From: Paludibacteraceae bacterium
GTDB taxonomy: Bacteria; Bacteroidota; Bacteroidia; Bacteroidales; Paludibacteraceae
Direction of reading: 5' to 3'
NCBI GenBank assembly: GCA_017557345.1
Contig: JAFYZR010000092.1
Coordinates: 1-63,992 of the forward strand
DNA: 63,992 nucleotides
Shown: positions 7,179-63,009 of the stretch, piece by piece
Layout: the number at the start of each line of letters is the position of its first letter
Numbering within the stretch: position 1 is the first letter of the stretch
Notes under the pieces: model-generated
What the model was told of the DNA's origin: nothing
What the model saw: the letters and a program-made list of their open reading frames with translations, nothing else
Database searches by the model: none
Program-made: the position numbers and the translations under genes

Positions 7179-7184
7179 CGATTA

Positions 7185-7240
7185 GCGAATTAGGGAGTTA
7201 GCGAATTAGCGAGTTAGGGAATTAGGGAATTAGGGAGTTA
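7185..7240. repeat. 8-bp tandem array, 7 units (GCGAATTA)
   Basis: Seven contiguous octamers start at 7185, 7193, 7201, 7209, 7217, 7225 and 7233, all fitting G[C/G]GA[A/G]TTA. The last unit supplies the stop codon of the methyltransferase on the minus strand. The same unit recurs at 62444-62482 and, degenerate, at 6588-6612. Confidence 0.95.
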
Positions 7241-7867
7241 GCGGATTTTACGAATAATCGTGAGACCGTCACGGATAGGGAGGATAACTTGCTCAAAGCG
7301 GTCATCCTCTTTTAATTTGTCATTAAATGCCCGCAAACCCAACGTCTGTTTATCTTTATCGTAAGCCGGATCAATAACATGCCCGTCCCAAAGCGTGTTA
7401 TCCGCCAATATGAATCCGCCAACCGGCACCAAAGGATAAACCAAATCCAGATATTCACAGTATTCCCGCTTATCCGCATCGATGAAAACCAAATCGAAAG
7501 TTGAGTTAAAAGTAGAAAGAATCTCTTTGCAATCACCTATAATCAGCTCAATCTTTTCGGCTAAAGGCGAGCGGGAAAGGTTGCGAAGGATGGTTTCCTG
7601 AAGCTCATCGTTGTGTTCGACGGTAATTAGTCGCCCGTTTTCGGTCAATCCTTCCGCCAGGCAAAGCGCGCTATAACCGGTAAAGGTGCCGAGTTCCAAA
7701 ATGCGATCTGGCCGAAGCATGTGGCTTATCATCGCGAGCGTGCGCCCTTGCACGTGCCCGCTTAACATGTGCGGGTTTAGAACATGAACGTGCGTATCGC
7801 GCGTGATAGACTGTAAGGCCTCATTTTCAGGCGTGCTGTGGTCGGAAATATACTCGTCAAGTGACAT
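7238..7867 (-). CDS. Class I SAM-dependent O-methyltransferase
   Basis: A 209-aa protein of the O-methyltransferase family 3 (catechol/caffeoyl-CoA type). Motif I ILELGTFTGYSALCLAEGL binds SAM; LITVEHND, LVFIDADKREYCEYLD and ILADNTLWDGHV carry the acidic and Asn residues that coordinate the divalent metal in this family. The start at 7867 (MSLDEYI) is favoured over 7909, because the minus-strand -7 box lies at 7887-7894. The natural substrate is unknown. Confidence 0.9.
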   Translation of the reverse strand: MSLDEYISDHSTPENEALQSITRDTHVHVLNPHMLSGHVQGRTLAMISHMLRPDRILELGTFTGYSALCLAEGLTENGRLITVEHNDELQETILRNLSRSPLAEKIELIIGDCKEILSTFNSTFDLVFIDADKREYCEYLDLVYPLVPVGGFILADNTLWDGHVIDPAYDKDKQTLGLRAFNDKLKEDDRFEQVILPIRDGLTIIRKIR

Positions 7868-10927: not shown

Positions 10928-11133
10928 GCGTCCTGCATAACAGATAGGAACCGGAAAACTCAACAAATAACAACGAACCGAGTGCAAATGCTTCACTAAT
11001 GGCGTGCCGATACTCTACGCCGTGACCCAGAAATGGTAGCGATGAGGTGGTCGGATTACAGAGGAAAAAGCAGGCCTCAAATCCTATTCTCAGGAAGTTT
11101 TCTCGAGCAGAAGTTATGTAGGGCGCTTTTTTT
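10928..11133 (+). ncRNA. Structured small RNA candidate, about 200 nt
   Basis: A 14-bp closing stem (10928-10941 with 11113-11126, G-U pairs included) runs straight into seven T residues, like an intrinsic terminator for a free RNA. Inside, GGAAAACT (10953-10960) pairs with AGTTTTCT (11096-11103). Three local hairpins follow: GGCGT/ACGCC (11001-11021), GACC/GGTC (11024-11052, with a CCA-GAAA-TGG loop) and GGATT..GAGG/CCTC..AATCC (11053-11084). The overall size and closed stem recall 6S RNA, but the branching is unlike it and it matches no RNA I can name. No clear promoter lies directly upstream, so it may be processed from the barrel mRNA. Confidence 0.6.
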
Positions 11134-11170: not shown

Positions 11171-11260
11171 GAAAAATAGAACATTTTTCACAGGTGTTGC
11201 ATAGGTAATAACCTCGACATAATACCGATAAGACACCGATGGGAAAAATTGAACATTTTC
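11171..11260 (+). repeat. Intergenic element copy 1 (19-bp conserved core)
   Basis: The flank GAAAAATAGAACATTTTTC (11171-11189) is an inverted repeat of 7-bp arms. It is followed by the core ACCTCGACATAATACCGAT (11211-11229) and a second flank AAAAATTGAACATTTT. The same layout occurs on the minus strand at 40141-40229 with an identical core. Both copies stand just upstream of a promoter. Confidence 0.85.
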
Positions 11261-28549: not shown

Positions 28550-28593
28550 ACTAAAGAATAACTAAATAATAACTAAAGAATAACTAAAGATTT
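28550..28593. repeat. 11-bp tandem array, 4 units (ACTAAAGAATA)
   Basis: ACTAAA begins at 28550, 28561, 28572 and 28583, exactly 11 bp apart. The units are ACTAAAGAATA, ACTAAATAATA, ACTAAAGAATA and ACTAAAGATTT. The array ends about 30 bp before the next ATG (28625). Confidence 0.95.
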
Positions 28594-28624
28594 AGTAAAA
28601 AATAGCTAATAAATAGAATTTAAC

Positions 28625-29100: not shown

Positions 29101-29205
29101 CTCCTTATATATATAAATATGTGTCGGTTTACAACCTAATCGTGATTATGTAAAATAGCATAATTAGAAAAAGACCCTATTATATAAAAATTATAAAGTT
29201 AACTA

Positions 29206-29249
29206 TATAGAAACGAGAGATATAACTTTATAGAAACGAGTGATATAAC
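29206..29249 (+). repeat. Two 21-bp direct repeats ahead of lon
   Basis: TATAGAAACGAGAGATATAAC (first copy, 29206-29226) recurs at 29229-29249 with one mismatch (20 of 21). The period is 23 bp. It sits 32 bp before the lon ATG, so it could be a pair of operator sites or part of a leader. Confidence 0.9.
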
Positions 29250-29280
29250 AATAAAGAAAAAAATACTAAGGAGAATATAG

Positions 29281-32195: not shown

Positions 32196-32650
32196 TTGCA
32201 AACACGCCACGCCGTGGAACATTTTTTACGAGTCACATATCACATCTCTACAATAATACAACAATAGGCCAAAAGAAACTTTTTATTTTACTTAATATAA
32301 TGTATACAAAACGCAGAATATGAGCATGTTATACATTTATACATGCATAATTATATGCATTTGTGGCAATTTAGCGTGTTTGGCTTATACACCAATAAGT
32401 GACACTTTACGTAATTCTTATAACTACTGAAAATCAATGAGTTATAAAATAAAGAATGGTATATCTATAAGCTTGCCATGCTGTTGATGATTCTCTGGAA
32501 AAATAGAACATTTTGTAAAAAGTAGTCCACTCTACTCTCTTTGTTTGAGATGGACTATTCCAACCGGGTTATGTTATGTTGCTGCTGTTTGCAAACATCA
32601 GTTTTGTGAATTAACTATCGCTATTCTGTGTTCACATTTATTGTGTGTAA
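32196..32650. other. Intergenic region without a recognisable gene
   Basis: AT-rich, with no open frame showing plausible composition. It contains one copy of the flank motif GAAAAATAGAACATTTT (32498-32514), identical over 17 bp to that of the element at 11171. It also has a weak hairpin (AGTCCA/TGGACT, about 32524-32552) and the TTTGTGAAT half-site at 32604. Confidence 0.6.
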
Positions 32651-40140: not shown

Positions 40141-40229
40141 AATGTTCAATTTTACCACTCTTCGAGGTTTCATCGGTATTATGTCGAGGTTTTTAGCTGA
40201 TTTTTTCTTCGAAAAATGTTCGATTTTTC
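40141..40229 (-). repeat. Intergenic element copy 2 (19-bp conserved core)
   Basis: Read on the minus strand: GAAAAATCGAACATTTTTC (40229-40211), the core ACCTCGACATAATACCGAT (40190-40172), then AAAATTGAACATT (40153-40141). Core and first flank match copy 1 at 11171-11260 with one difference in the flank. It lies directly upstream of the mce promoter. Confidence 0.85.
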
Positions 40230-40238
40230 GTTAATTTG

Positions 40239-40345
40239 GGATCCCCGATGTAACCTGCTAAGGTTGCAGTGGGGAAAGCGTAGAGCAAGGCGTAGTGCTT
40301 TACAAGTGCAGAGCACGCAGTCGCACGAGCCTTAGCTTAAGCGCG
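40239..40345 (+). ncRNA. Possible structured RNA
   Basis: CCCC-GAT-GTAACCT / AGGTTGC-A-TGGGG-type hairpin (about 40242-40274) and GTAGAGCA/TGCTTTAC (40280-40303), then GTGC/GCAC (about 40306-40326). Both larger stems contain positions that pair as G-U on the plus strand but would be A-C mismatches on the minus strand, favouring plus-strand transcription. No promoter is clear. The rest of 40346-40440 shows nothing beyond a GAAAAATTGAAC motif on the minus strand. Confidence 0.35.
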
Positions 40346-40440
40346 TTCAATTTTTCTTTCCACAGAAATACCAACCACACTTTGTTAGAAGATGGTTTCC
40401 CTATTTCGTTCAAGACATAAAAAAGCAGTAATATGCAAAT

Positions 40441-54125: not shown

Positions 54126-54318
54126 TTTTTTGACTATTTTTTTGCATTTTTATGCATTTTGTATTCTTTTTCGACTATCTCCCGACAGAAAACAGAAAGT
54201 GTCTCAGAACGCAAATAAATGCCCTTTATCCTTATTTTTATCTTTCGCCCGCGCGCGACTATATACACGAGAATGCGCTTTTTATGCCTTTTACCATTTA
54301 CTTGACACCGAGAATAAC

Positions 54319-54370
54319 GCACTTATCGCGCACTAATAGCGCACTTATCACGCACTAATCACGCACTAAT
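54319..54370. repeat. 11-bp tandem array, 5 units (GCACTTATCNC)
   Basis: GCACT occurs at 54319, 54330, 54341, 54352 and 54363, exactly 11 bp apart. The units alternate GCACTTATC and GCACTAAT with short variable ends. It lies between the divergent gyrA and rho genes. Elsewhere 54126-54495 is AT-rich with no gene I can support. Confidence 0.95.
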
Positions 54371-62441: not shown

Positions 62442-62443
62442 AA

Positions 62444-62482
62444 TTCGCTAATCACTAATTCGCTAATTCGCTAATTCGTTAA
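62444..62482. repeat. 8-bp tandem array related to that at 7185
   Basis: On the minus strand the units read TAACGAAT, TAGCGAAT, TAGCGAAT, TAGTGAT, TAGCGAAT. It fills the gap between ribF and the next gene and supplies that gene's TAA stop. Confidence 0.9.
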
Positions 62483-62832
62483 TCCTCCGAGTAATAGCCT
62501 TTGGCTATTCCGTACTGCAACTCTGCGTCTTGGATGAGTTGGATCTGCACGGCCGAGATATTCCTACCCTCGGCATGAATAGCCTTCAGCACATAATTGA
62601 GTTGCTCCGTTTCATCCACATCGCCATCCAGATATTCCATCTCACCGGTCTTCGGGTCTTCGCGAAGCAAGCCTTGCTCCTCCAGATAATCATCCATCAG
62701 ATCCAGTACCAGCAAGATATCATCGGGCGTCAGTCCACCGCGGTCTGCGGCTGGAATGGCCTTGAAGACAAACTCCACCAACTCCCGTTCTTCCGGCTCC
62801 AATAGAGCCATCTCAATGCTATTATTTTCCAT
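62479..62832 (-). CDS. Conserved acidic protein, 117 aa
   Basis: Starts MENNSIEMALLEPEERELVEFVFKAI; a GLTPDDILLVLDLMDDYLEEQG helix pair and the ending IQDAELQYGIAKGYYSED follow. It is highly acidic and all helical, with no membrane segment. I do not recognise a family. The ATG at 62832 is preferred to an upstream TTG at 62841. The promoter is at 62855-62886. Confidence 0.8.
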   Translation of the reverse strand: MENNSIEMALLEPEERELVEFVFKAIPAADRGGLTPDDILLVLDLMDDYLEEQGLLREDPKTGEMEYLDGDVDETEQLNYVLKAIHAEGRNISAVQIQLIQDAELQYGIAKGYYSED

Positions 62833-62946: not shown

Positions 62947-62956
62947 CCTTTTTCTT

Positions 62957-63005
62957 GGTGTACGGTGTATGGTGTACGGTGTATGGTGTACGGTGTACAG
63001 TGTAC
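62957..63005. repeat. 7-bp tandem array, 7 units (GGTGTAC)
   Basis: Seven heptamers GGTGTAC/GGTGTAT with one AGTGTAC, starting at 62957 and ending 5 bp before the stop codon of the BspA-like gene. Unit, copy number and position match the array at 310-358. Confidence 0.95.
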
Positions 63006-63009
63006 GAAG

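Follow-up and report, generated by a model that had tools for sequence, protein, structure and literature searches.

Introduction

The REP/BIME mosaics of enterobacteria, which occur with RAYT transposases, are made of short palindromic modules that lie between genes in mosaic combinations, and the STRR repeats of cyanobacteria are heptamer arrays that are not known to have a conserved flank frame. Bacterial repeats of this intergenic sort tend to be regarded as leftovers of selfish DNA.

Among known systems, the nearest in kind to the repeat analysed here is BrickBuilt of Porphyromonas gingivalis and P. gulae. In BrickBuilt, 23-nt units in 1 to 22.8 copies are accompanied by a leader and a tail, the ends are IS5-like and inverted, and the units are of one repeat sequence (PMC4596501). 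A search of the open-access PMC literature returned no report of 11-bp intergenic arrays in the bacteria studied here.

We analysed a stretch of 63,992 nucleotides from a Paludibacteraceae bacterium (GenBank assembly GCA_017557345.1, contig JAFYZR010000092.1), hereafter the window. A preliminary description of this DNA had pointed to an intergenic element of roughly 90 bp present in two copies, and had suggested either a binding site for a shared regulator or a small mobile repeat. The 11-bp tandem array at the core of the element, the direct flanks at both of its ends and the genus-wide architecture are features absent from that description.

Results

Two flanked 11-bp arrays in the window

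The repeat formed by 11171-11260 and 40141-40229 is genuine and far beyond chance. The two copies, placed on opposite strands by the mapped flank coordinates as had been reported (Table 1), share a core of 20 identical bases (11210-11229 and 40172-40191; 19 had been counted before), and 100 shuffles gave no such core match even with three mismatches permitted. The 15-bp flank, also rightly recognised as shared, has five matches in the window with at most one mismatch against 0.12 expected, and the flank reported to stand alone elsewhere was recovered by an exact search. Copies 1 and 2 align with 75% identity over 105 columns (E 1.5e-12). Flank A (GAAAAATNGAACATTTT) is an imperfect palindrome that stands in direct orientation at both ends of the element, around 11-bp units. 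By eye, its AAAAAT can pair with ATTTTT around five bases, a pairing not preserved in the relative G015 (also by eye). Both copies repeat most strongly at lag 11, with a value of 0.52 in copy 1 and of 0.45 in copy 2, where the margin over other lags is small.

Table 1 Features of the repeat and its surroundings in the window
Feature	Position	Strand	Remarks
Left flank A of copy 1	11171..11189	+	GAAAAATAGAACATTTTTC, imperfect palindrome
11-bp array of copy 1, five units	11188..11242	+	TCACAGGTGTT GCATAGGTAAT AACCTCGACAT AATACCGATAA GACACCGATGG
Right flank A of copy 1	11243..11259	+	Orientation equal to left flank
Left flank A of copy 2	40211..40229	-	15-bp flank match at 40215-40229
Core region and array of copy 2	40156..40210	-	Holds the 20-bp core 40172-40191
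Right flank A of copy 2	40141..40155	-	One mismatch
Second dispersed repeat R2	40230..40346	-	Adjoins copy 2, A-flank sequence on both sides
Solo flank A, no array	32498..32514	+	Exact flank match
Independent period-11 intergenic array, no A flank	28550..28609	.	ACTAAAGAATA, 5.5 copies
Independent period-22 (2x11) intergenic array, no A flank	54313..54367	.	AATAACGCACTTATCACGCACT, 2.5 copies

Intergenic tandem arrays of other periods also occur in the window, at 310-361 (period 7), 7181-7241 (24, or 3x8), 29200-29259 (23), 62442-62483 (8) and 62956-63006 (14).

Between each copy and its downstream gene lies a TAnnTTTG motif, which we take to be promoter-like, in keeping with the earlier placement of both copies upstream of a promoter. 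The gene calls made there, TPR-ribH and mce-mmd, hold as well: copy 1 precedes genes for a TPR protein and lumazine synthase (the latter sharing 93% identity with its counterpart in a Paludibacteraceae MAG from sheep), and copy 2 precedes genes for a glyoxalase-fold protein, compatible with methylmalonyl-CoA epimerase, and a carboxyltransferase.

A structured RNA candidate had been placed beside each copy. Beside copy 1, positions 10934-11131 (+) resemble RF01693 (Bacteroidales-1, 6S-like) below threshold, at 35.5 bits against a cut-off of 60 (E 3e-4); beside copy 2 no Rfam family was found (best E 0.45), and a second dispersed repeat (R2) lies there. By eye, the sequence beside copy 1 also precedes TPR-ribH in some ten relatives (L197, L198, L206, L208, L213, L215, L220, L221, L222, L226), and a scan of nine of these loci, all except L222, gave none at the gathering score. 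It is perhaps a diverged clade of Bacteroidales-1 RNA. That the repeat is itself a transcribed structured RNA whose fold is the conserved function is extremely unlikely. Copy 1 does fold better than its shuffles (z -2.5 and -2.1), as does, strongly, an element of G068 (z -3.5 and -4.3), but copy 2 gives z 0.4 and -0.8, the mean over 15 elements, one per species, is -0.48 and -0.76, and no Rfam family reaches its gathering score within the window.

Dispersal of the flank-A form

The genome scan for core and flank that the preliminary description had proposed gave 60 exact 19-base cores and 66 exact flanks in the own genome of the window (2.84 Mb, 155 contigs), with no match to the reversed-pattern control of either. 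A 131-bp query gave at least 40 matches in this genome (40 of 103 candidates were scored, window copy 2 not among them); for the whole element, the 19 best other genomic matches among those listed are 84-94% identical. Among the fetched loci of the own genome there are 50 different A pairs (53 flank pairs minus three with the flank-B form described below), and the element is about 90-130 bp long. Flank spacings fall into classes about 11 bp apart, at 72-74 (34 pairs), 81-85 (8), 95-96 (7) and 58 (1). The best lag is 11 in 47 of the 50 pairs and another in three.

With genes called crudely, as the longest ORFs and without a gene finder, 45 of 46 A elements fall between genes. Matches inside coding sequence and the lack of a common context had been named beforehand as what would refute the earlier suggestion; the former are rare, and a shared context of gene function is indeed lacking. 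Counted with the strict flank in part of the loci (46 elements), A elements show a weak orientation bias relative to the gene downstream, with 29 sense and 13 antisense (p 0.02), and none relative to the gene upstream (20 sense, 25 antisense); 14 lie in divergent, 4 in convergent and 24 in tandem arrangements. TAnnTTTG is found in 21 of the 29 gaps with an element sense to the downstream gene, the motif being loose and the count lacking a control gap set.

These figures bear on the idea of an operator, or promoter-proximal site, for a shared regulator whose regulon would be the neighbouring genes. Both window copies stand in the sense direction upstream of the promoter-like motif, and the downstream bias and the frequency of TAnnTTTG in those gaps agree with such a role. 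Against it count the looseness of the motif and its missing control set, the mixture of divergent, convergent and tandem gaps, and neighbouring genes that are miscellaneous and look unrelated. We consider an operator distinctly unlikely, and the half of the earlier suggestion that named a regulator is not sustained.

The other half, a small mobile repeat, fared better: the repeat is dispersed, although movement was not seen. No clear target-site duplication was found for the 50 A pairs at the best of 35 offsets each, where 3-mers were duplicated in 5 of 50 (1.7 in shuffled sequence), 4-mers in 3 of 50 (0.9) and a 5-mer in 1 of 50. Like a MITE, the A element is short, non-coding, dispersed and present in many copies; terminal inverted repeats were not found, as one flank sequence stands at either end in direct orientation. 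All ORFs beside the arrays were compared with one another, and 90 of the resulting 180 protein pairs, when inspected, showed no recurring mobile gene.

Three of the 101 genus genomes contain exact flank A; of its 68 sites, 66 are in the own genome and one each in G066 and G110, from which we conclude that the A form expanded within its own lineage. A search with the 106-bp whole element in 61 genomes (the own and 60 relatives) matched three: the own genome, G015, with one diverged homologue whose layout equals that of the A element, and G038, with the flank only. Upstream of TPR-ribH, no A pair was found in 34 loci of relatives, 33 of which include the promoter; when two mismatches to flank A were allowed, four single matches appeared there, none paired, and RUG11067 (L212) carries a B-type element at this place. 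At L214 and L217, an insert of about 130-150 bases framed by CCTCTGGGCTGG...GCCAGCAGCGA lies directly before the ATG of the TPR gene. The exact 19-base core had no match in GTDB-220 genome contigs, from which the own or a very near genome was possibly left out, and none in viral contigs; a longer flank-A pattern matched 15 stretches of viral contigs once each. We tentatively regard the A form in the window as a private expansion carrying the species' own array, a reading to which, jointly with the overall explanation discussed below, we give somewhat less than an even chance.

A second flank form across the genus

In 7 of 41 aligned array copies the frame is made by other flanks. Flank B (AATCTTAAAAATCGTACATTTT) is likewise in direct orientation, and AAAAATNGNACATTTT is common to flanks A and B. 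The B pattern is present in 70 of 101 genus genomes; its reversed control matched once, in G123. Elements were picked by pairs of B flanks alone, 60-200 bp apart, in loci fetched partly because they looked paired, and 20 of the 105 B sites in the fetched loci are unpaired. This gave 43 B-core-B elements from 15 species, in which the best lag in the range 5-20 was 11 in all 43 elements and all 15 species. Flanks are 104-108 (34 elements), 94-96 (7), 117 (1) or 131 (1) apart. With one element per species and the own genome excluded (n=14), identity at lag 11 is 0.53, with z 18.5 against dinucleotide shuffles; lag 22 has z 11.9, lag 23 has z 0.3, and no other lag exceeds z 2.4. For all 33 non-own B elements, lag 11 reaches z 29.4 and lags that are not its multiples reach up to 4.3.

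The units themselves are unlike, being ATACCCTTGCG in G086, AACCACGGTTT in G034, TCGGACTCTTA in G122 and TAATCATTACT in G068. G074 and G124 have tandem frames with two different cores, in the layout B-core1-B-core2-B. The genes on either side of a B element are tandem in 34 cases, convergent in 7 and divergent once, an arrangement that also speaks against an operator.

B elements often stand directly against stop codons. At L029, L031, L439, L458, L462 and L465, flank B supplies the last codons and the stop of the upstream gene, so that the proteins end in KS. An element that encodes last codons and a stop may alter protein C-termini.

The proximity to stop codons would suit a transcription terminator such as a Rho loading site, with one pyrimidine-C contact per 11-nt unit. 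Rho sites have their C residues spaced at close to this unit length, and when the left-hand gene is on the flank strand, the cores read in its sense have C > G in 14 of 21 cases. This C-richness, however, tracks the flank and not the gene, as a right-hand gene on the opposite strand sees C > G in only 6 of 23 cases. The lack of a preferred orientation of A elements to the upstream gene, noted above, and the presence of arrays in 5' leaders also count against termination, which we judge very unlikely as the role of the repeat.

A second repeat and the transposase candidates

Repeat R2, present in the window and at L005, L021, L022, L027, L032 and L099, occurs in seven distinct contexts among the fetched loci. 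It is about 115 bp long and GC-rich, has inverted segments, is often framed by pieces of flank A and exists with two versions of its 3' half.

Imperfectly palindromic flanks in direct orientation recall an element of REP/BIME-like or IS200/IS605-like type, on whose palindromes a Y1 transposase would act to move it. The IS200/IS605-like family is not known to duplicate its target, and no clear duplication was found here. The only Y1_Tnp match in the own genome is L048 (G000:C93), where the fetched contig end has 56% G+C against 44% in the window; the contig may be a contaminant, one behind the 6.84% contamination figure. Y1_Tnp passes the cut-off in 24 of 101 genus genomes and in none of the B-rich genomes G070, G074 and G087, although G074 is 100% complete and has 16 B sites. 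Conservation, moreover, ends about at the palindrome. Movement by a Y1 transposase is accordingly a highly improbable account of the repeat.

Different arrays at the same gene junction

Among the B elements, 18 between-species pairs lie at a shared gene junction, with one or both neighbours homologous. The junctions are serC-serA, rpmA-serS, the end of a uridine kinase gene and four others, with gene names assigned from the sequences by the author of the analysis and not by a family search. The median similarity of the cores is 15.5 for these same-junction pairs, 66 for 101 within-genome pairs and 15.0 for the 781 other pairs. Same-junction and within-genome similarity differ (p 3e-5), and still do without G000 and G074, which contribute 79 of the 101 within-genome pairs (29.5 within genomes, 22 pairs, p 0.007); these p values are rough, as the pairs are not independent. 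The difference between same-junction pairs and the 781 other pairs is not significant (p 0.07), and some same-junction arrays of different species keep a partial likeness (scores up to 33). Likeness of the flanks at shared junctions is inflated by the choice of elements by flank. An operator is made less plausible again by arrays that differ between species at the same gene. Homogenisation within genomes is incomplete: one element of G000 (L470) has an array unlike its fellows, G074 has two kinds of core, and the within-genome median in G082 is 16.5.

At most shared junctions the B frames stand at the same offset from the gene, with exceptions in G086 at serC-serA and in G114. In G122, G098, G004 and G034 the frame takes up the serC-serA gap from the stop codon almost to the start codon; its left offset is equal in these genomes, and the arrays are unlike. 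The frame of G086 lies 66 bases past the stop codon. A survey of 30 serC-serA loci, with the serA start in 29 and the serC end in 26 of those, found four B frames (G122, G098, G004, G086), the frame of G034 being known apart from this survey. In 22 other species with a recognised serC end, 5 to 145 bases of other sequence, some of it coding-like, precede the matched serA start. The five carriers are spread over the serA tree, which is weakly resolved (5 changes against a shuffled mean of 4.8, with at least two forced by well-supported branches), so that shared ancestry is unproved and repeated insertion at one spot is possible. The frames here are either old and often lost, or mark a spot hit repeatedly. 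Offsets that are equal within most junctions and different between junctions favour old, often-lost frames, without settling the matter.

Period 11 in gene gaps generally

Twenty stretches of 20 kb from the genus, placed irrespective of repeats (11 of the 20 genomes match a phased CGA-unit pattern), hold 50 tandem arrays with a score of at least 50. The period is 11, 22 or 33 in 20 of 31 intergenic arrays and in 0 of 19 within ORFs; in this tally rows were counted by hand on crude ORFs, arrays in one gap were counted apart, and 10 of the 20 stretches contribute. A single stretch, L369 (G009), accounts for 5 of the 14 period-11 rows. In other families of the order (0.32 Mb in 20 stretches, four of them below 1.3 kb), 1 of 12 intergenic arrays at the same score has a period that is a multiple of 11. 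A pattern of three phased CGA-bearing units is matched by 34 of 101 genus genomes, its reversal by none.

Arrays without flanks occur in 5' leaders, for example between the TAnnTTTG promoter-like motif and the start of pta (Pfam PTA_PTB). Leaders of asnS carry 11-bp arrays of unlike units in G084, G062, G009, G001 and G068, as do leaders of pta in G065 and G021; some other leaders of these genes have none. These are single examples from which no frequency is taken, since 26 of the 60 leader rows were minus-strand loci that showed the wrong end. Unit lengths of 7, 8, 10 and 16 are also found in gaps, and 11 is thus not the sole tolerated length. By eye, the pta leader of L310 (G031) has period 8, and arrays of period 10 were seen in an other-family genome, G060 (L390, L391). 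A motif, GTCTAGGATT, was seen by eye beside arrays in G000 and G065 despite differing units (L180, L138, L139, L143, L156).

Discussion

The frame recurs, its spacings fall into classes about 11 bp apart, the arrays are mostly alike within a genome and unlike between species, and the period stays at 11. Judged from these comparisons, the pattern appears to be one of concerted evolution of arrays inside a fixed frame. Our tentative explanation, which we rate a little below even, is that the locus represents one member of a modular repeat, non-coding and dispersed, that belongs to a Paludibacteraceae genus of the rumen and in which the flanks frame an exchangeable 11-bp array. An array cassette would be copied between the frames of one genome, by ectopic conversion or by a trans-acting recombinase that uses the flanks, and the arrays would be homogenised in this way. 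The unit may be kept at 11 bp because one unit is about one helical turn, such that a putative protein stacking along the array would meet every unit on the same face. Within-genome likeness, however, is also expected from a recent spread of whole elements.

The simplest rival holds that the repeat is a functionless, MITE-like mosaic, in which a non-autonomous element trapped a minisatellite and multiplied, with slippage and replacement by newer copies and no binding role. The high identity of the best-matching other copies and the private expansion of the A form agree with this, and BrickBuilt is described as a MITE that trapped a direct repeat (PMC4596501). The constant unit length is what it leaves unexplained: slippage alone does not account for one unit length in unlike units across 15 species. 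The element also has neither inverted ends nor a clear target duplication, and the B frames stand at equal gene offsets at most shared junctions (G086 at serC-serA and G114 apart). We regard a functionless mosaic as somewhat unlikely.

Returning to the framed, exchangeable array, we note that across the 15 sampled species the frame, the length class and the period persist and only the letters are replaced, genome by genome, which is hard to explain without action in trans. A bolder version, speculative and in our estimate unlikely, is that a dedicated system acting in trans exists in each species to read, and perhaps to write, the 11-bp arrays of fixed intergenic frames; upon a shift in its specificity the arrays of the genome would be replaced, and the frames and the one-turn period would stay. 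Such a system could rest on a phased DNA-binding scaffold whose reader evolves rapidly, or it could consist in copying from one genomic template.

With these repeats, the concerted evolution of non-coding DNA can be put to the test in a concrete instance, from a rumen lineage that is uncultured. They also carry a warning, in that a gap with an array, for instance at serC-serA, at rpmA-serS or in the leader of asnS or pta, may mimic a regulatory site in any single genome.

Each known system shares a part of this architecture. With integron cassettes and their attC sites, the repeat has in common imperfect-palindromic direct sites and exchangeable contents that are sometimes in tandem; it differs in that the contents are without genes and dispersed rather than gathered at a single platform. 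The contents are mostly alike between the loci of one genome and are therefore not unique, unlike CRISPR spacers. STRR arrays resemble it in having short tandem units of fixed length in gene gaps across a clade, and differ from it by the flank frame found here. REP/BIME elements resemble it in their short intergenic modules in mosaic order (here flank, array, flank, R2), the modules here being perhaps palindromic too, and are set apart by the lack here of a consistent Y1 transposase, by the central 11-bp tandem array and by its turnover. BrickBuilt comes closest (PMC4596501), as a minisatellite inside a small, dispersed, intergenic element with distinct ends, present in tens of copies in Bacteroidales; a minisatellite inside an intergenic dispersed element is what we find too, and we count sites common to several strains as a further likeness. 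In place of its 23-nt unit, the repeat here has 11-bp units in about five copies, with lag 11 in 43 of 43 B elements; in place of its inverted ends it has direct flanks, by eye unlike the ends tabulated in that source; and where BrickBuilt has one repeat sequence, the units here are replaced between species and the period is kept.
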